This document shows positions 23,320 through 31,102 of a stretch of DNA of 64,000 bases, piece by piece. The notes beneath the pieces are model-generated. The model made no database searches, was not told where the DNA came from, and saw only the letters and a program-made list of their open reading frames with translations. Source of the stretch: an uncultured Roseobacter sp. (lineage in GTDB: Bacteria; Pseudomonadota; Alphaproteobacteria; Rhodobacterales; Rhodobacteraceae); NCBI RefSeq assembly GCF_947495275.1, contig NZ_CANLYL010000016.1:1-64000 (forward strand), read 5' to 3'. Within the stretch, counting starts at the first letter, position 1. Every line of letters begins with the position of its first letter. A program made the position numbers and the translations under genes.

Positions 23320-24000
23320 TCAGACGACGATGCGGATTTCGGCAACATCGGCATCAATCTCCTGACAGGCTTTCAGCAGGCGACCTTCCAGATGTGTCTG
23401 AACATATGCCGCATGAAATCTCGACGGTGCTCGGAGGGTCAAGCGCCCCCCTGCCCTCTCGGCACGCTCCAGAGACGCGATCCAACTGGAGTAGCTGCCC
23501 ATGTCCTCTGCGTGCAACAGAGCTTTGGAGAGAGCCCACTCCGTGCCACTTGACACATCGGGCACTGCAACCTTGCCGCGGACAGGCAAAGGCACAACTT
23601 TTTCTGGCAGAACCTCCCTACCCATACGCAACTCGAAATCGCTGCCCACGTACTCCCAGGCAGCTTCCGTATCGCTCAACAGCTGATCAATACCCAACCC
23701 ATATTGGGTCACTCGCCCGCGCGCGCCCTGACGTTTGACCACAAGCCAGCCCTTGGCCCGAAAAAGAGCCATTTCACGTTTTACCGTACGTTCATCCACC
23801 GACCACAGACGTGCAATTTCGCGTTGTCCCACAGCAAGCTCGTCGCGGGCCCAGTTGTAACGCGCGGTAATCAAAGTAATCAGCCGAAGTGCCCTGCGTT
23901 GATCATGTTTGCCCAACGCCAGCGCAAATGCGCCAAGTGCTGTCAGCAAATCATATTTACGCGCAGAAGCTCCGCGACCCACTGGTTTCGTGGAATACAT
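23320..24000 (-). CDS. DnaA-like plasmid replication initiator
   Basis: About 226 residues (249 if a TTG at 24069 is used). It resembles the short DnaA-like replication proteins of roseobacter plasmids rather than chromosomal DnaA, having no P-loop AAA+ domain. Seen: an N-terminal region with a winged-helix-like stretch, VGQREIARLWSVDERTVKRE, followed by a basic wing, KGWLVVKRQGARGRVTQYG, and a C-terminal part resembling the DnaA N-terminal domain, with SYSSWIASLE and LRAPSRFHAAYVQTHLEGRL. It lies back to back with parA across a 440-base region that carries repeats, as expected for a replicon core. I infer that it starts replication at that region. Confidence 0.8.
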   Translation of the reverse strand: MYSTKPVGRGASARKYDLLTALGAFALALGKHDQRRALRLITLITARYNWARDELAVGQREIARLWSVDERTVKREMALFRAKGWLVVKRQGARGRVTQYGLGIDQLLSDTEAAWEYVGSDFELRMGREVLPEKVVPLPVRGKVAVPDVSSGTEWALSKALLHAEDMGSYSSWIASLERAERAGGRLTLRAPSRFHAAYVQTHLEGRLLKACQEIDADVAEIRIVV

Positions 24001-24217
24001 GGCCCTGCCTTCATTCTGTAAGATGCGCGCTTTCAAAAGCTGCGCCTGCCTCAAATACGGGCTGATCAATCAGCCTCTTGTGATGGTTAGCCCGCAAAAC
24101 CCGCCGCTAATCCATCCTGTTCCCTGATTTGCGTCCGAAGTTCCGATTCTGTCAAGCGTTGAGTGAATCTGATCGGCGGCAAAGATCATATATCGAAAAG
24201 AAATATCGGTATAAAGG

Positions 24218-24300
24218 TATTGGGGGACGACTTGTATGTCCCCCAATAGCGTTGTTTTGTCACCCAATAGGATGTGGTGCGCAGAAACTGTCCCCCAATA
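24218..24300. repeat. Iteron-like repeats TGTCCCCCAATA
   Basis: Three direct copies of a 12-base motif: TGTCCCCCAATA at 24237-24248, TGTCACCCAATA at 24258-24269 and TGTCCCCCAATA at 24289-24300, plus an inverted copy with one mismatch at 24218-24229. The direct copies start 21 and 31 bases apart, close to two and three helical turns. This fits binding sites for a replication initiator or an incompatibility locus. Confidence 0.65.
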
Positions 24301-24479: not shown

Positions 24480-24493
24480 GTCCCTGCGGGGAC
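24480..24493. repeat. Candidate parS palindrome, copy 1
   Basis: GTCCCTGCGGGGAC, one mismatch from the perfect palindrome, 20 bases before the parA start. Its place suggests both partition and par autoregulation. Confidence 0.65.
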
Positions 24494-24513
24494 ATCCTAA
24501 ATGACAGGCACAT

Positions 24514-25818
24514 ATGTTCACGCATTCCGATCTTGCTAAGCTTCAGGCGCAATCTCTCAAAATGCAGGGGTTTATCCGCCAGCAAACCTATAGCCCGCAG
24601 AATGAAAAGACCCTGCGGCGTTTTTCCAGCTGGGAAGTGGCCGAACTGATCTTCAAGGTAAATCAATCGACGATGCGCGGGCGGCTTGCGGCGGACCCTA
24701 CCCTGCCCCAGGGAACGGTTGAGGCAGACGGGCGCCAGCACTGGTATTCGCTGGAGGAGATCAACGAGATGCGTCGTCGGTTGAAGGTGAACCGCCGGTC
24801 GTTGATGCCGTATCGACCGGCAGGCAAGCGGGCGATGCGGGCCGCGATCGCCAATTTCAAAGGGGGTGCGGGAAAGTCTACCGTGGCGCTTCACTTTGCC
24901 CATGCGGCAGCGCTTGATGGCTACCGGGTGCTATGTGTCGACTTTGATCCGCAGGCAACGCTCAGCCACTCCATGGGGCTTTCCGATGTGGCGGAGGAAT
25001 ATACCGTCTGGGGTATCATGGCGCGTGATCTGGCCGCTGAAACCGAGCGGATGAACAGGGCGTCCCAAGGTGCTGAGAGTGGAACCGCCCTGCCCCAGCG
25101 CCGCCTGCCCAGCAGTATCGCTGACATGGGGCTCGCCGATCTGCGTGCGGCCGATTTCATCAAGCCGACGAACTGGCCGACCATCGACATCGTGCCCTCC
25201 TGTGCGAATGCGGCCTTTGTCGAATTTGCCTCCGCTCAGTATCGTCATCTTAATCCCGAATGGTCCTTCTTTGCTGCTGTGTCGCGTTTTCTGGATCAAT
25301 TGCCCAATGATGCCTACGACCTGATCCTCTTCGATTGCCCGCCTGCGATCGGCTATCAGTCCATGAACGCGGTCTTTGCAGCTGATATGCTCTACATCCC
25401 CTCCGGGCCTGGCTATTGGGAATACGATTCCACGACCTCTTTCATTGGGCAGCTGGCGGAAGCGTTGGAAGACCTCAGCCGTTTTAACGGGCTTGTCCCC
25501 GCGGGGACAATGAACCTGCCCAAGGTGTTTCTGGACCTGCGTTTCCTGCTGACACGGTTCGAGCCGAACAACGATCTGCATCGGGCGATGCAACAGGCCT
25601 TTGTGAAGGTGTTTGGCGATAGGGTGACGGAACACCCCATCGAAATGACCCGTGCGGTTGAGCAGTCCGGGCGGTTTTTATCGTCCATATACGAGATCGA
25701 TTACCGCGACATGACGCGCGAAACCTGGCGCCGGGCAAGGGCGAGTTTTGATCAGGCCTATGGAGAATTCCGCACCCATCTCTGCGCGGCCTGGGACCAG
25801 CTGGAGGATGAGGCATGA
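24514..25818 (+). CDS. parA: Partition ATPase ParA
   Basis: A 434-residue type-Ia partition ATPase that moves plasmid copies apart together with ParB. Seen: an N-terminal DNA-binding part with a MerR-like segment, SWEVAELIFKVNQSTMRGRL near residues 36-55, then a deviant Walker A, FKGGAGKSTVALHFAH near residues 115-130, VDFDPQATLS, and a Walker B-like LILFDCPPAIGY. Its length matches ParA/RepA of alphaproteobacterial low-copy replicons. It overlaps parB by four bases. A perfect palindrome lies inside the gene at 25493-25510. No repC gene is adjacent, so this is not a RepABC plasmid. Confidence 0.92.
   Translation: MFTHSDLAKLQAQSLKMQGFIRQQTYSPQNEKTLRRFSSWEVAELIFKVNQSTMRGRLAADPTLPQGTVEADGRQHWYSLEEINEMRRRLKVNRRSLMPYRPAGKRAMRAAIANFKGGAGKSTVALHFAHAAALDGYRVLCVDFDPQATLSHSMGLSDVAEEYTVWGIMARDLAAETERMNRASQGAESGTALPQRRLPSSIADMGLADLRAADFIKPTNWPTIDIVPSCANAAFVEFASAQYRHLNPEWSFFAAVSRFLDQLPNDAYDLILFDCPPAIGYQSMNAVFAADMLYIPSGPGYWEYDSTTSFIGQLAEALEDLSRFNGLVPAGTMNLPKVFLDLRFLLTRFEPNNDLHRAMQQAFVKVFGDRVTEHPIEMTRAVEQSGRFLSSIYEIDYRDMTRETWRRARASFDQAYGEFRTHLCAAWDQLEDEA
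25493..25510. repeat. Candidate parS palindrome, copy 2 (in parA)
   Basis: TTGTCCCCGCGGGGACAA, a perfect 18-base palindrome inside the parA coding sequence, where it encodes VPAGT. Confidence 0.7.
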
Positions 25819-26873
25819 GCAAGCGACGCGTCTTTGATATCGACTTTGATGAGGCCACTGTTCCTGCGGGGACAGTGGACGAACCCCCTGCCCGCCGCGG
25901 TCCTATGGCGGCAGCCATTTCGGAAAATGCAGAAGCTTTGGGTGTGCGTCAAACGACGGAAGCCGAAATCAGGGCTGAGAACGACCGGCTTGCCCATGAA
26001 TATGTCGCTCTGAAAAAGAATGGCCAGATCGTCGGATTGGTGCCGCTTGACGAGATCCAGATGACCAAATTGGTGCGTGACCGGTCGGCAGATCGGGATG
26101 CCGATCTGGAGGAGTTGAAGGCTTCCATTCTGGCCGTTGGTCTGTCCAATCCGATCCATGTCGAGGAAGTTTCTGGCGGGTATGAGTTGATACAGGGGTT
26201 CCGGCGATTGAGCGCCTATCGAGAGTTGGCCAAACAGACTGGCGATGCCCGGTTCAAAAGCATTCCGGCAACGCTTCAGGCAAAGGGCGCGCAGCTTGAT
26301 CATCTATACCGTCGCATGGTCGATGAAAATCTGGTGCGGCGCGATATCTCCTTTGCCGAGATGGCCCAGCTTGCGATGTCTTATGGGGCTCGAAGTGGAC
26401 AGTCGGTCGCTGCGGCGATCGAGGCGCTTTATGCCTCGGCTGGCCGTCAGAAGCGCAGTTATATTCGTCATTTTGCGCATCTGTTGACGGTATTGGGCGA
26501 TAACCTGAAGTTTCCTGAAGCGATCCCGCGCGCTACCGGTCTAAGTCTTGTCAAATTGCTGGAGGAGAACCCCCGTTTCGCCGGTCAGGTCAGGGCCGTT
26601 TTAGAGAGCCAACCCAACCGGGATGCCGCCCTTGAGCTTTCGCTCTTACGCAGTGCTGTAACCGGTGGCCAGAAAAAGCCCAAAACAACCAAGCCAGGCA
26701 GTTCCAGAGCCTCTGCAAAGACAACCATCAAGTTGAACCGGCCTGAAGGGGTGGCAAAATGCACCGCGTCTGCCGGTAAATTCGAGGTTGTTCTGGATCA
26801 TGATTTCGGGGCGATTGAACCACGCAAGCTCGAAGCCGCGGCACGGGCTTTTCTGGATCGGTTGAAGGGCTAA
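25815..26873 (+). CDS. parB: Partition protein ParB
   Basis: A 352-residue CTP/DNA-binding partition protein. Seen: a ParB/Srx domain with VPLDEIQMTKLVRDRSADRD near residues 76-95 and the motif YELIQGFRRLSAYRELA near residues 122-138, corresponding to the GERR-type CTP-binding loop, then a helix-turn-helix region. It starts four bases inside parA, so the pair is coupled. Its 3' end overlaps that of the convergent bchO gene by four bases, so the replication module abuts the photosynthesis genes with no spacer. Confidence 0.92.
   Translation: MSKRRVFDIDFDEATVPAGTVDEPPARRGPMAAAISENAEALGVRQTTEAEIRAENDRLAHEYVALKKNGQIVGLVPLDEIQMTKLVRDRSADRDADLEELKASILAVGLSNPIHVEEVSGGYELIQGFRRLSAYRELAKQTGDARFKSIPATLQAKGAQLDHLYRRMVDENLVRRDISFAEMAQLAMSYGARSGQSVAAAIEALYASAGRQKRSYIRHFAHLLTVLGDNLKFPEAIPRATGLSLVKLLEENPRFAGQVRAVLESQPNRDAALELSLLRSAVTGGQKKPKTTKPGSSRASAKTTIKLNRPEGVAKCTASAGKFEVVLDHDFGAIEPRKLEAAARAFLDRLKG
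25859..25874. repeat. Candidate parS palindrome, copy 3 (in parB)
   Basis: TGTTCCTGCGGGGACA, two mismatches from perfect dyad symmetry, within the first codons of parB; it encodes VPAGT. Confidence 0.5.
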
Positions 26874-27733
26874 TCTGACAGGAAGCGCAGAATGTGAGCC
26901 GCAACGATGTCCGGTACCTCTTCATGTACCAAATGACCTTTGCCAGCCAGCTCCACCAACCTGGCATTCGGTATTCGACCGGCGGCCCTGCGGGCGACCG
27001 CCGGCGGGACTGTGCCGTCCTGATCTCCGGTGATGAAAAGCGTCTCGGCAAGCATGGTGGGTAGACTACCGATCAGATGATCAAGCGACCATTGCGCCAT
27101 CATGAGCAACGTGGCGTCGACGTGATCTCGATCCGCTACAAGCCGTCTATAGAAATCAATACCCTGCTCGTCCAGTTTAGAGCCTGTACTGCCAATTAGT
27201 GTCTCAATTCGCCGGGTGCGCGCAGCAGCGACCGAGAATGCTGTAGCCGTGAATGGAATAGCTGCCAGAAGCTTGGCCATCGCGGGGAACATCAGTCCGG
27301 CGATGCCGTCAAATGTATCCAGGGCTGGGTTGATCCCGACGATGCGTGGCGGATGTCCCCGCGGGGACATCAGGGTCTTTGACAGATTGAGGGCGATGGC
27401 GCCTCCGGCGGAGTGACCGATGATGGCATCAGGCGACCAGCCTTCATGCACACACAGAGATTCGATGTCGGCCGACATGGCATCCAGCCCGCATCTGTGC
27501 CGCGCGCCGAGCCTGGTGAAACCCTGTCCGGGCAAGTCGATTGCGATGACCTCGAAGCGCTTTGCCAAATGGGGAATGAGAGACCGGAAACTATGTGTGC
27601 TGCCGCCCGCACCATGTAACAGAAGCACAAGCGGCCCTTTCCCCCTCTGTTGTATGTGCCACCTATGTGGCGGCGACATTACGCGGCGGGACAATTCGGC
27701 ATGGGGCCATTCTGGGGGAGGTGGCCAGCGCAT
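26870..27733 (-). CDS. bchO: BchO, alpha/beta hydrolase of magnesium-chelatase operon
   Basis: A 287-residue alpha/beta-hydrolase-fold protein of unproven biochemical role that is nearly always encoded with bchI and bchD. Seen: the oxyanion-hole motif LLLHGAGGSTHSF near residues 36-48, the nucleophile elbow GHSAGG near residue 104, and a late aspartate and histidine (ITGDQDGTV, GKGHLVHEE). Starts five bases downstream of the bchD stop. A perfect parS-like palindrome lies inside the gene. The stop overlaps the parB stop tail to tail. Confidence 0.9.
   Translation of the reverse strand: MRWPPPPEWPHAELSRRVMSPPHRWHIQQRGKGPLVLLLHGAGGSTHSFRSLIPHLAKRFEVIAIDLPGQGFTRLGARHRCGLDAMSADIESLCVHEGWSPDAIIGHSAGGAIALNLSKTLMSPRGHPPRIVGINPALDTFDGIAGLMFPAMAKLLAAIPFTATAFSVAAARTRRIETLIGSTGSKLDEQGIDFYRRLVADRDHVDATLLMMAQWSLDHLIGSLPTMLAETLFITGDQDGTVPPAVARRAAGRIPNARLVELAGKGHLVHEEVPDIVAAHILRFLSD
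27353..27370. repeat. Candidate parS palindrome, copy 4 (in bchO)
   Basis: ATGTCCCCGCGGGGACAT, a perfect 18-base palindrome within the bchO coding sequence, read in a different frame (as MSPRGH) from the other copies. Confidence 0.7.
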
Positions 27734-27738
27734 GGCGT

Positions 27739-29388
27739 TCAGACGCCCAGAGCGACGCTTACAGCTCCTGTGAGGGTCTGTGCGTCAGCGCGGGGCAAGG
27801 CAAGGTACGAACCGTCACATTCGAGTGCCAACGCTTCCAGCCCCGATTGCGGGCGCGCGGACATGTCGATCACGAGGCTGCTGATGCCATGGGATCGGAT
27901 CAATTGGGCGACTTTTCCGGCATCGGCAGAGGCACGGGCGCGATCAGCGCTACCATCTAGCGCGATGTTGGCGCGCCCGTCGGTCAATGCGATCACAGTG
28001 GGTGTCAAACCCTTGCCGCGACTTTGCAGCGCGAGGAGTAACGCTTGTTGCAGGCCAGTGGCCAGTGGCGTGCCGCCGCCACCTGGAAGGTTGGCAAGGC
28101 GGCGCTTGGTCTGCACAAGAGATCGCGTGGGCGGCAACAGGATTTCAGCATCCAGACCCCGAAACGAAATCAGGGCTACATGATCGCGATCCGCGTAAGC
28201 TTGGGCAAGGAGCAATTCGATGGCTCCTTTTGCTTCGTTCAGTCGTGAAACAGCCGCGGAGCCCGACGCGTCGACCGCAAAGATGAGGAGACGGTCGGAT
28301 TGCTCTTGATAACGTTTCAGGCGTATGTCGGACGGTCGGATCAGCAACTTCGAGGACAGTGCATTCTGTTTCCGGCGGATTGGTTGCCAGGGTGCGGCGG
28401 CTCTGAGCGTGGCTACGAGGTCGATGCGATTGCGTCCGTCAAGACGTCCGGGGCGCGAGGGCAGGGGGCGCCCTCGTCTGTTTCCCTTGCGTTTTTGACC
28501 TGCGCCCTGACCTGTCGATCTTCGTGCTGTCCCCGTGGGGACAAGGCCCGCAAGGACATGTGGCGGTAATAGTGCCCTGACAGCGTCAACCAGCATGTCG
28601 CCTTCGGGTATGTCGCGGGGCGTATCAGCGTTCGGTTCCGCGCCGGTTTCGGGCTCGAGAGCAGGCGTTGTGTCTGGTTCCACGTCGCTGGGAATTTGAG
28701 TGGCGCGTTGCGGGTAAACGAGGCTGACGGCAACTTCGATATCGCGCTGATCCAGTTTTTTATGCCCGCTGAAGGCCGCATGTGCCCGCGCGACGCGAAG
28801 CGCAAGAAGGGGCGCTCGCATGCTGTCGATCCCGAACTGCGAGGCCAAAGCCGTCACCGTGTTCAGATCATCAATGGAACAACGGACGGATTGCGGATCA
28901 ACAAGAGCCGTCCCCGCGGGGACAGGTCGCCATCCGACGGGCATCTTTCCAATTGGAGAGATATGGAATGGCAAGCGTTCTGAAAGGGCAGGGGGGGTGG
29001 CCTCCTCCTCCTCTGCGCCCTCATCAAGGGCGAGGATGCAATGACCCACGTCAAGGTCCAGTTGATGCCCTAGTTTGGCCGCCAGTTCGGTGCTGCATCT
29101 TTCCGCCATGGACAGGATTGCAATGAAGTGATCGTCAAATAATCCTTTAAAATCAACAATATGATCGGATTTTAGCGTTGCTGCAAGATCCAAACCCCCA
29201 AACAAATGCTCGTCAGAGATGTTGGGATGTATTCGATGGGCGTTTAGGGGTTCCAGAGCACGCAGCACCTCGTCTCGTTGGGGGCTTGCGCGCATTCGAA
29301 TAATGGCCCCTCCAAGGTAGCCAGGTGCGAAGGACAACAAGCCCAATCCGAGCGCCGCGAGGTTCCAGCTTTCGGTTTGAGGGGTCAC
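27739..29388 (-). CDS. bchD: Magnesium chelatase subunit D
   Basis: A 549-residue subunit that forms a ring complex with BchI and links it to BchH. Seen: a degenerate AAA+ N-terminal half, a basic and proline-rich linker near residues 265-310, and a C-terminal von Willebrand A domain with the metal-site motif FAVDASGSAAVSR near residues 372-384. Coupled to bchI by a four-base overlap. Two parS-like palindromes fall inside this gene and encode VPTGT and VPAGT. Confidence 0.95.
   Translation of the reverse strand: MTPQTESWNLAALGLGLLSFAPGYLGGAIIRMRASPQRDEVLRALEPLNAHRIHPNISDEHLFGGLDLAATLKSDHIVDFKGLFDDHFIAILSMAERCSTELAAKLGHQLDLDVGHCILALDEGAEEEEATPPALSERLPFHISPIGKMPVGWRPVPAGTALVDPQSVRCSIDDLNTVTALASQFGIDSMRAPLLALRVARAHAAFSGHKKLDQRDIEVAVSLVYPQRATQIPSDVEPDTTPALEPETGAEPNADTPRDIPEGDMLVDAVRALLPPHVLAGLVPTGTARRSTGQGAGQKRKGNRRGRPLPSRPGRLDGRNRIDLVATLRAAAPWQPIRRKQNALSSKLLIRPSDIRLKRYQEQSDRLLIFAVDASGSAAVSRLNEAKGAIELLLAQAYADRDHVALISFRGLDAEILLPPTRSLVQTKRRLANLPGGGGTPLATGLQQALLLALQSRGKGLTPTVIALTDGRANIALDGSADRARASADAGKVAQLIRSHGISSLVIDMSARPQSGLEALALECDGSYLALPRADAQTLTGAVSVALGV
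28528..28543. repeat. Candidate parS palindrome, copy 5 (in bchD)
   Basis: TGTCCCCGTGGGGACA; perfect except at the central two bases. Inside bchD. Confidence 0.6.
28910..28923. repeat. Candidate parS palindrome, copy 6 (in bchD)
   Basis: GTCCCCGCGGGGAC, a perfect 14-base core inside bchD; encodes VPAGT. Confidence 0.65.
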
Positions 29389-30389
29389 CCCAGCACCTCC
29401 TCCACGACGCGCCCAATGCGCGTGCCCGACCCTGCTTCATCAAGGGGGTCGCGGCGCAGCCGGTGCGATAAGGCCGAGGGCGCGATTTCGCGCAGGTGGT
29501 CCCGGTTGAGTTTGCGTTTTCCTTGATAGGCGGCCAATGCGCGGGCCGTCCGCAACAGGGTCAGTTCGCCGCGCAGCCCGTCAGAGCCCAGTGCGATGCA
29601 AATCGCGGCACAATCTTCCAGAATGCCGTCGGGCGTTACGAGTCTAGGCAGTCGTTTGCGCGCCTTGAGAATTGTATCGCGGATTTTTGCGTCTTCGGCG
29701 CTGTATGTCTCCATGAACGCGGCGTGATCGGATTCAAAAGCATCCCGGCGCCGAATAACCTCAACCCTTTCGCCGATCTCATCGGGGGATCGGACCTCGA
29801 CCGACAGACCGAAACGATCAAGGAGTTGCGGGCGCAGTTCGCCTTCCTCGGGGTTGCCGGACCCAACAAGCACAAAGCGCGCCGGATGACGGATGGACAG
29901 GCCCTCCCGTTCAACCACGTTCTCGCCCGATTGAGCGACATCGAGCAACAGATCGACGATGTGATCTTCCAGCAGATTGACCTCGTCGATGTAGAGATAC
30001 CCACGGTTCGCGCGCGCCAGAAGGCCGGGTTCAAACGCCTTTTCGCCGCGCGTTAGCGCGCGTTCGATGTCCAGCGCGCCCACCACCCTGTCTTCGGTGG
30101 CCCCCAGCGGCAAATCAATGACGGGCGTGGGGCGTGTGACCAGTTTTTTGGAACCCAGTTCCGCCCAGTCGGGGCAGTCAGCGGATCTGGGTGAATTGAC
30201 CGGGCAGGTTTCCACCACGCGAATGGGCGGTAGCAGGGCGGCCAGTGCCCGCACTGCCGTCGATTTGCCCGTGCCTCTGTCACCAAAAACCAGAACGCCG
30301 CCGATGCCCGGGTCCACTGCCGTCAGGATCATCGCCTGTTTCATGGCCGTCTGTCCGACAATTGCGGAGAAAGGGAAGGGGGTCTTCAT
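29385..30389 (-). CDS. bchI: Magnesium chelatase subunit I
   Basis: A 334-residue AAA+ ATPase that drives Mg2+ insertion into protoporphyrin IX together with BchD and BchH. Seen: Walker A GDRGTGKSTAVRAL near residues 34-47, Walker B LYIDEVNLLEDHIV near residues 137-150, and the sensor motif LVGSGNPEEGELRPQLLDRF. The frame is open to 30431, but the ATG at 30389 overlaps the crtA stop by four bases and gives the family length. Confidence 0.96.
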   Translation of the reverse strand: MKTPFPFSAIVGQTAMKQAMILTAVDPGIGGVLVFGDRGTGKSTAVRALAALLPPIRVVETCPVNSPRSADCPDWAELGSKKLVTRPTPVIDLPLGATEDRVVGALDIERALTRGEKAFEPGLLARANRGYLYIDEVNLLEDHIVDLLLDVAQSGENVVEREGLSIRHPARFVLVGSGNPEEGELRPQLLDRFGLSVEVRSPDEIGERVEVIRRRDAFESDHAAFMETYSAEDAKIRDTILKARKRLPRLVTPDGILEDCAAICIALGSDGLRGELTLLRTARALAAYQGKRKLNRDHLREIAPSALSHRLRRDPLDEAGSGTRIGRVVEEVLG

Positions 30390-31102
30390 AGAGCGTATTC
30401 CAGTGCGTCGAGCGGGCTTTTTCCATCCCATGTACCCGCGTCACCAAGTATGGCGAAACGCGCGTAAAGTTCTTCGGAAAACCAGTTGCCCTCGCGCACG
30501 GCGCGAATGGCGGCTGCATGGGGTCCGTTGCTGCGGGCAAATTCCGCCATGGCCGCAGCATCCGGCCAGATTGAGAACGTGATCTGGTGCAGCAGGGGAA
30601 CTTCACCGATGCCGATCTTGAAAGCGACGTTTTGATCAGACCCGATCATGCGGCTGATGTCCGGCACACGTCGCCAGAATTTCAGGGCAACGGACGGTTT
30701 GATCGTCGCGCGTGTCAAGGCGGCCAGGGGCCCGCCGGATGCCCGGTGCGTGCTCTGGAAAGGTGCCACGCCTGACCATTGCCCCCGGGCAGAGGCGGTT
30801 TCCAGATATACTGTCCAGTCTTCGTTGGCTTTGCGCCGGTACCGATTGAAAATCTCGGCTTGGGCGGTTTGTGTGCGTGCGGTCTGTTCATCCGGCCAAC
30901 TGGCGAGGATCGCGTAAACGGAGGTGTTGGGGATCGGTGTGAAACCTTCACCGGTGCCGGAACCGCAAAGCTTCCAGAAATCGATTCCAGGTACCTTTGG
31001 CAATGCCGTCCGTGCGAGCCCCATCATCGCAAATGCCCAGAGGCGCGCCGCCGGGCGGGCAAAGCGGAAAAAGCTCAGTGATACAATGGGCGTGCCGGTC
31101 AT
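30386..31102 (-). CDS. crtA: Spheroidene monooxygenase
   Basis: A 238-residue haem-type oxygenase that converts spheroidene to spheroidenone with O2, giving the red carotenoid of aerobic cells. Seen: family stretches MGLARTALPKVPGIDFWKLC near residues 27-46 and GTGEGFTPIPNT near residue 49. First gene of the crtA-bchI-bchD-bchO unit, divergent from crtI with two PpsR boxes between them. Confidence 0.93.
   Translation of the reverse strand: MTGTPIVSLSFFRFARPAARLWAFAMMGLARTALPKVPGIDFWKLCGSGTGEGFTPIPNTSVYAILASWPDEQTARTQTAQAEIFNRYRRKANEDWTVYLETASARGQWSGVAPFQSTHRASGGPLAALTRATIKPSVALKFWRRVPDISRMIGSDQNVAFKIGIGEVPLLHQITFSIWPDAAAMAEFARSNGPHAAAIRAVREGNWFSEELYARFAILGDAGTWDGKSPLDALEYAL

Follow-up and report, generated by a model that had tools for sequence, protein, structure and literature searches.

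Conserved palindromes in the DnaA-like replicons of the Rhodobacterales were reportedly described by Petersen and colleagues in 2011, within the replication module, and are said to have been proposed as centromeric anchors. Three further systems are close to the locus treated here, as far as the accessible parts of the papers describe them. In plasmid-borne photosynthesis gene clusters (PGCs) a DnaA-like I module lies at a conserved central place, and chromosomal PGCs were proposed to be re-insertions (Brinkmann et al., 2018, PMC6052148). A single reciprocal exchange within a 14-base palindrome distinguishes RepABC compatibility group 1 from group 2 (PMC5613091). Sites of the parS kind were also found within open reading frames downstream of repABC modules, for example cas3, casA and casB, and positive selection was proposed (PMC9040568). 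In this paper we looked at a 64,000-base window at the start of contig NZ_CANLYL010000016.1 (110,073 bases) of an uncultured Roseobacter sp.; the contig bears a plasmid replicon. The gene order in the window is a DnaA-like rep gene on the minus strand, parA and parB on the plus strand, and then bchO, bchD and bchI on the strand opposite to parAB; the setting is a DnaA-like parAB replicon inside a PGC. A short palindrome that recurs along parAB, bchO and bchD is our subject.

The repeated element is an ungapped 14-mer palindrome, GTCCCCGCGGGGAC, with six copies at 0-2 mismatches within 24480-28923 (Table 1). A first-pass annotation of this DNA had reported six copies, two of them perfect over 18 bases, with no comparable copy elsewhere in the 64 kb. 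All six were found, within 0-2 bases of the starts that it gave. Perfect palindromes of at least 18 bases are seen at 25493-25510 and at 27352-27371, the latter over 20, and a third copy is perfect over 14. Beyond the six, a scan of the window at up to two mismatches returned no match. At up to three mismatches there are 5 further places, which gives 11 in total against 7.05 expected, and 11 of 100 shuffles reach 11, so a loose scan alone would miss the motif. In the assembly (5,083,760 bases, 60 contigs) all five places at 0-1 mismatch fall in this region, and no other copy of this quality occurs, so the background frequency genome-wide that would have spoken against the annotation is not what we see. 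At up to two mismatches 6 of the 15 places in the assembly are these copies, and a reversed control pattern gives 34 places. A spaced form, GTCCCC-N4-GGGGAC, with four added bases between the halves, occurs at background frequency and was rejected. Many relatives of the locus also have a site near the 24480 position. The copy at 25860 is degenerate here and exact at the same place in the close relatives L001-L005, L007, L008 and L010, and the peptide at bchD 283-287 is V-P-T-G-T in this strain and V-P-A-G-T in most relatives.

Table 1. Features of the replicon module and of the adjoining bch genes, in positions of the window.
Feature	Position	Strand	Remarks
DnaA-like replication initiator	23320..24069	-	DnaA_N match in 23323-24069, 25.2 bits (cut-off 24.6)
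Four iteron-like repeats around TGTCCCCCAATA	24218..24300	24218 -, 24237 +, 24258 +, 24289 +	Between the DnaA-like gene and parA
parS-like palindrome	24480..24493		GTCCCTGCGGGGAC, 1 mismatch; 20 bp upstream of parA start
parA, partition ATPase	24514..25818	+	Pfam AAA_31 2.7e-24; Walker-type; distantly similar to RepA of repABC
parS-like palindrome in parA	25495..25508		Exact; codons 328-332 (V-P-A-G-T); perfect over 18 bases
parB, 352 aa, predicted palindrome reader	25815..26873	+	ParB_N 6.5e-06, 26.5 bits (cut-off 26.3)
Degenerate parS-like copy near parB 5' end	25860..25873		GTTCCTGCGGGGAC, 2 mismatches
bchO, alpha/beta hydrolase	26870..27733	-	Host gene of one site
parS-like palindrome in bchO	27355..27368		Exact; codons 122-127; S-P-R-G in bchO frame
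bchD, Mg-chelatase subunit D	27739..29388	-	Host gene of two sites
parS-like palindrome in bchD	28529..28542		GTCCCCGTGGGGAC, 1 mismatch; codons 283-287
parS-like palindrome in bchD	28910..28923		Exact; codons 156-160 (V-P-A-G-T)
bchI, Mg-chelatase subunit I	29385..30431	-	No sites in this strain

The explanation that fits these data best, and to which we give a probability of about 0.9 on sequence grounds, is that the palindromes are parS (centromere) sites of a low-copy DnaA-like parAB replicon amid the PGC, and that they are held in bchO and bchD by selection for inheritance. The palindrome travels with this ParB lineage. Related ParB loci were taken from a genome-contig scan (the best 80 of 374 confirmed, 51-88% identity); at least one exact GTCCCCGCGGGGAC is present in 80 of the 80 fetched loci, and the site corresponding to that in parA is exact in 70 of them and within two mismatches in all. 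In 108 replicon loci all 488 copies of the 12-base core, TCCCCGCGGGGA, fall in the 801,166 bp that lie no more than 4 kb from the parB start, with none in the remaining 743,439 bp. At the level of the genus, 13 of 19 genomes have this ParB (at least 72% identity) and hold 3-14 exact copies; the six genomes without it hold 0, 0, 0, 0, 0 and 1. At the level of the family, an exact copy occurs in 41 of 394 genomes. A ParB match at E <= 1e-60 is present as well in 36 of them, the others being G118, G199, G202 and G318 with one copy each and G247 with 64 copies. One of the six copies of G402 is away from parAB. The locus has two features expected of a ParABS system: palindromic repeats that are clustered at parAB and specific to the ParB lineage, with the exceptions given here and below, and a Walker-type ParA together with a ParB_N-domain ParB in one operon, in which the two genes overlap (the NCBIfam RepA, RepB and ParB models match below their cut-offs). 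The parS assignment in the first-pass annotation is well supported by this co-occurrence.

Another option is that the sites are regulatory, with ParB or another repressor controlling bch transcription and partition being secondary. The copy upstream of parA may also autoregulate, judging from other par operons, and ParB spreading could alter bch transcription. However, the same palindromes accompany parAB where the fetched stretch shows no bch gene, and in the bch genes they are found deep in coding regions at lineage-specific places, so that we consider a mainly regulatory role very unlikely.

The palindrome itself varies in a symmetric manner. Among 487 core copies with flanks, 484 have a complementary outer pair, which is G..C in 426, T..A in 54 and A..T in 4, and three are unpaired; the third type is TTACCCGCGGGTAA. 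In L132 (G105), TTCCCCGCGGGGAA occurs four times, once ahead of parA and once each within parB, bchO and bchD, and the parA site is GTCCCTGCGGGGAC. The outer base pair shifts symmetrically between lineages, alongside ParB residue 211. All 80 G-type rows have R at this residue; of the 20 other rows, 17 have Y (8), K (5) or P (4). At residue 176 the G-type rows carry R (76) or K (4), and 18 of the 20 others carry K. Both residues follow the ParB_N match (residues 76-145), where a helix-turn-helix region would be expected. Since the compared ParB rows are kin, the association between residue 211 and the outer pair is a prediction and not a proof.

These variations also bear on the possibility that the palindromes are binding sites of the DnaA-like initiator, for origin or copy-number control, and not of ParB. 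Rep and ParB travel together, and the module also has iteron-like repeats around TGTCCCCCAATA, whose TGTCCCC half resembles the half of the parS-like palindrome. Yet the iterons form a set of their own, placed between the rep gene and parA, and are probably origin repeats and not parS; similar repeats, at up to two mismatches, were seen in the 7 other loci examined, two to four in each. On trees that share one set of 100 loci, the palindrome type must change 5 times with ParB, 5 times with ParA and 8 times with the DnaA-like protein (6, 5 and 8 in the unequal sets of 111, 110 and 100 loci). ParB residue 211 discriminates the types with an overlap of 0.05 versus 0.25 for the best Rep residue, and in the homologous RepABC systems the palindromes are ParB anchors, according to the accessible part of PMC5613091. 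On this evidence we regard binding by the initiator as very unlikely, and ParB as the probable reader.

For the sites within photosynthesis genes we used 42 PGC loci with parB beside bchO, duplicates removed, and counted as a site any of the three palindrome types with at most one mismatch. At least one site in bchO or bchD is present in 40 of the 42, and L055 has a single site, at the extreme end of bchO. The places used most often are bchO residue 122 (33 loci), bchD 156 (25 loci) and bchD 283 (29 loci); fewer loci use other places, such as bchD 341/342, which is hit in three reading frames. Such variety of place and frame points to repeated origin, and to selection that acts on the DNA and not on one peptide. 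In AlphaFold models loop 118-129 holds the bchO site and a coil holds the bchD 156-160 site, and the bchD 283-287 site is in a stretch (282-304) with pLDDT under 50 between the AAA lid and VWA parts. At the residue level the bchO site shows as an inserted S-P-R-G. A gap of at least 3 residues at or beside the bchO site columns is found in 17 of 19 non-Roseobacter parAB-less BchO rows, and the same gap also in 8 parAB-linked rows without this site.

Codon constraint was analyzed in a clade of 29 rows (support 100), of which 24 have parB beside the cluster and 5 are parAB-less; the tree was built without the site columns, by a quick method with SH-aLRT support. Eight duplicates per gene were dropped from the bchO and bchD alignments and three duplicate loci were skipped; parAB-linked PGCs with sites elsewhere, for example L022, L040, L055, L067, L079 and L132-L135, are outside the clade counts. 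In the 24 linked rows the bchO site is present at up to one mismatch in 24 (exact in 22), the bchD 283 site in 24 (exact in 20) and the bchD 156 site in 23 (exact in 21), the latter being absent in L016. Fourteen codons are wholly in sites, and their modal share is 1.0 in 12 columns and 20/22 and 23/24 in the other two; the mean modal share of other conserved degenerate columns is 0.50 in bchO (83 columns, none at 0.95) and 0.55 in bchD (204 columns, 3 at 0.95). With gaps at sites scored as differences, nucleotide identity between linked pairs is 0.965 at sites versus 0.649 outside, and is higher at sites in 276 of 276 pairs. Between linked rows and the five parAB-less rows it is 0.528 at sites versus 0.622 outside (26 of 120 higher at sites), and between parAB-less pairs 0.374 versus 0.625 (0 of 10). 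This is a constraint on synonymous choice and on residues together, and it is lost where the partition genes are absent. The earlier proposal that selection for partition acts on BchO and BchD codons appears to hold in the comparison that it called for.

A previous comparison of ours used 28 rows, for whose choice the presence of the main sites was one criterion, which in part predetermines its bchO figures; the clade-based comparison of 24 rows shows the same picture. With gaps set aside, 25 of the 28 rows and four parAB-less ones give 0.98 at sites versus 0.646 outside for linked pairs (300 pairs), 0.624 versus 0.627 for linked against parAB-less rows (100 pairs) and 0.496 versus 0.648 for parAB-less pairs (6 pairs). 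The fifth parAB-less row, L085, is included in the 24-row comparison and not in this one.

Could the proteins be what is conserved? If V-P-A-G-T and S-P-R-G were functional peptides of BchD and BchO, their conservation among the parAB-linked proteins of the clade would be explained. This is contradicted in the main by the fixation of synonymous codons, and also by the three reading frames at bchD 341/342, by the BchO gap in rows without the site and by the predicted loop, coil and low-confidence positions; we find such an explanation scarcely credible. As improbable, in our view, is chance or shared ancestry, by which an ancestral repeat set would not yet have diverged. The shared ancestry of these clusters is real, but the rest of both genes is down to ~0.65 nucleotide identity with the sites at 0.97, and the parAB-less rows of the same clade lost the sites.

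The parAB-less clusters serve as a natural control for the parS explanation. In the genus, bchD is present in 17 of 19 genomes, and four have no parB beside it: G395 (contig of 4,133,097 bases), G396 (4,519,919), G394 (756,090) and G408 (219,993). The fifth parAB-less row of the clade, L085 (G342), is on a 292,407-base contig, with 1.5 kb beside bchD covered. The tree pairs G395 with R. litoralis pRLO149_94 (support 100) and G394 with L002 (96) as sisters; G408 adjoins the G394/L002 pair (94) and G396 is apart, all amid parAB-linked rows. In the four Roseobacter loci bchO is followed by a cytochrome c gene after ~75 to 630 bp, and in this interval no parA, parB or DnaA-like remnant was found above noise. 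At the three main site places the motif is absent in all five rows. L118 (G395) keeps 10, 12 and 11 of the 14 site bases; among the 2,500 14-mers of its two genes a score of 11 or more is seen in just two, the bchD places. The L118 sites are decayed remnants of parS-like palindromes. Compared with its sister pRLO149_94 (L119), 33 of 42 site bases are equal, against 0.79 and 0.82 outside; the L118 sites differ from the sister about as much as the remaining gene sequence. L085 keeps 1-5 of the 14 bases.

Several observations weigh against the parS explanation. Of the 42 PGC loci, L034 has no site in bchO or bchD; neither has L143, the ParB of which has 34% identity. In the family, 61 of 97 genomes with a ParB match (E <= 1e-60) are without the exact 14-mer; 20 of these 61 were fetched. 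Fifteen of them have TTCCCCGCGGGGAA, in two to six copies each, and 3 have a single TTACCCGCGGGTAA; of the last two, one shows imperfect GTCCCC-type forms and the other a one-mismatch TTCCCC-type form. G063 (89 exact copies) and G247 (64) have several copies far from any known parAB, G266 has 5 of 14 copies on other contigs and G399 has 2 of 8 on its largest contig. The Rep tree fits the palindrome type just somewhat worse than the ParB and ParA trees do. Two of the five parAB-less rows are on contigs of 220 and 292 kb, which are perhaps not chromosomal, and in all but one of the four parAB-less Roseobacter rows 6-10 of 14 site bases remain, a level not in itself distinct from background.

Other replicons show how sites are arranged elsewhere. 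The copies of G063 and G247 (loci L166-L173) are on large contigs, some paired 25-33 bp apart. In L027, L028, L051, L054, L058 and L071, five of the six from Leisingera, there are 10-15 sites at up to two mismatches, many of them ~50-150 bp apart downstream of parB, and the fetched stretches have no bch genes; these dense arrays look as if formed where no essential gene adjoins. In Sulfitobacter sp. S190 (L143; ParB 34% identity) no GTCCCC sites were found in the fetched stretch, and TTACCCGCGGGTAA occurs once, beside parAB. The fetched stretches of S. guttiformis pSD118 (L141/L142) also have no GTCCCC sites; this RepB replicon occupies the corresponding position in its PGC, and another palindrome, ATTGCCC-2-GGGCAAT, flanks its parAB with one copy per side. 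In L001 (Roseobacter insulae) the DnaA-like module is intact and is accompanied by bch genes and six exact sites, all on a very large contig of 1,074,209 bases, which may be a megaplasmid, a cointegrate or a recent chromosomal insertion with the module still kept.

In the genome studied here two more distant ParB homologues are encoded (33% and 31% identity); the 14-kb stretches around them hold no GTCCCCGCGGGGAC copy within 2 mismatches, and in one of them a different palindrome, GTTTCGC-1-GCGAAAC, occurs twice. The DnaA-like initiator adjoins parAB, and the module is related to that of pRLO149_94. The R. litoralis PGC plasmid is termed DnaA-like I (PMC6052148), and pDSM14862_b likewise DnaA-like-I (PMC9025767), in the accessible parts of these papers. 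The palindrome of pDSM14862_b (L178) is of the TTCCCC type and that of pRLO149_94 (L145) of the GTCCCC type, so several palindrome types or partition specificities may exist within group I.

A mechanism that fits the parS explanation is that a ParB dimer would read GTCCCCGCGGGGAC at each site, one joint partition complex would form over ~4.4 kb, and ParA would move this complex to the daughter cells. Sites would arise in bchO and bchD, in tolerant loops and a linker, possibly since the parB side offers hardly any spare DNA. Partition, through selection for plasmid stability, would then fix those codons and the inserted residues, and in a cluster without parAB the constraint would end and the sites would decay. 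ParB spreading over bchO and bchD might affect their transcription. A further idea, which we offer as tentative and rather doubtful, is that the PGC has captured a plasmid centromere: the array in bchO and bchD would make pigment genes and plasmid inheritance inseparable and help to keep the module central, and decayed parS codons in chromosomal clusters would be scars of plasmid-to-chromosome moves. The locus is an unusually clean case in which a signal for DNA inheritance appears to overwrite the coding sequence of core metabolic genes, and the clusters without parAB provide a natural control. The published proposal that Rhodobacteraceae photosynthesis clusters moved from plasmids back into chromosomes can also be tested here at the sequence level: such a move would be marked by an in-frame parS remnant in bchO or bchD, even if the stretch from bchO to the cytochrome c gene shows no trace of the module, as in the four Roseobacter loci examined.

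Compared with the DnaA-like replicons of the Rhodobacterales, pRLO149_94 among them, the module is of the same kind (DnaA-like rep, parA and parB) and has palindromes. What differs from those replicons, as they are reportedly described, is that half of the sites here are beyond the module, in photosynthesis genes, with evidence for selection on codons and residues. Sites of the parS kind within genes near repABC are known already, and palindromes as DnaA-like centromeres are said to be. A search of titles and abstract openings, with subscription papers such as Petersen 2012 outside its scope, gave no report of parS in bch genes, and GTCCCCGCGGGGAC was not found in print in the accessible literature, where its 12-base core occurs in 8 unrelated papers. 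The plasmid PGCs of Brinkmann et al. (2018, PMC6052148) have the same genetic setting as this locus; the main text of that paper has no word beginning with "palindrom", and so appears not to use centromere remnants as evidence. Like the repABC case (PMC9040568), ours would be one of parS in coding sequence near a partition operon in the Rhodobacterales, but the replicon type and host genes differ, and the accessible part of that paper has no codon test of plasmid versus chromosome, inserted peptides or fossil sites. RepABC groups 1 and 2 (PMC5613091, in its accessible part) share with our replicons a symmetric single-pair change of a 14-base palindrome along with the partition lineage, in different palindromes and another replicon family. 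The novelty lies in sites that are maintained in the codons of BchO and of Mg-chelatase, in part through inserted peptides, and in their fossils.

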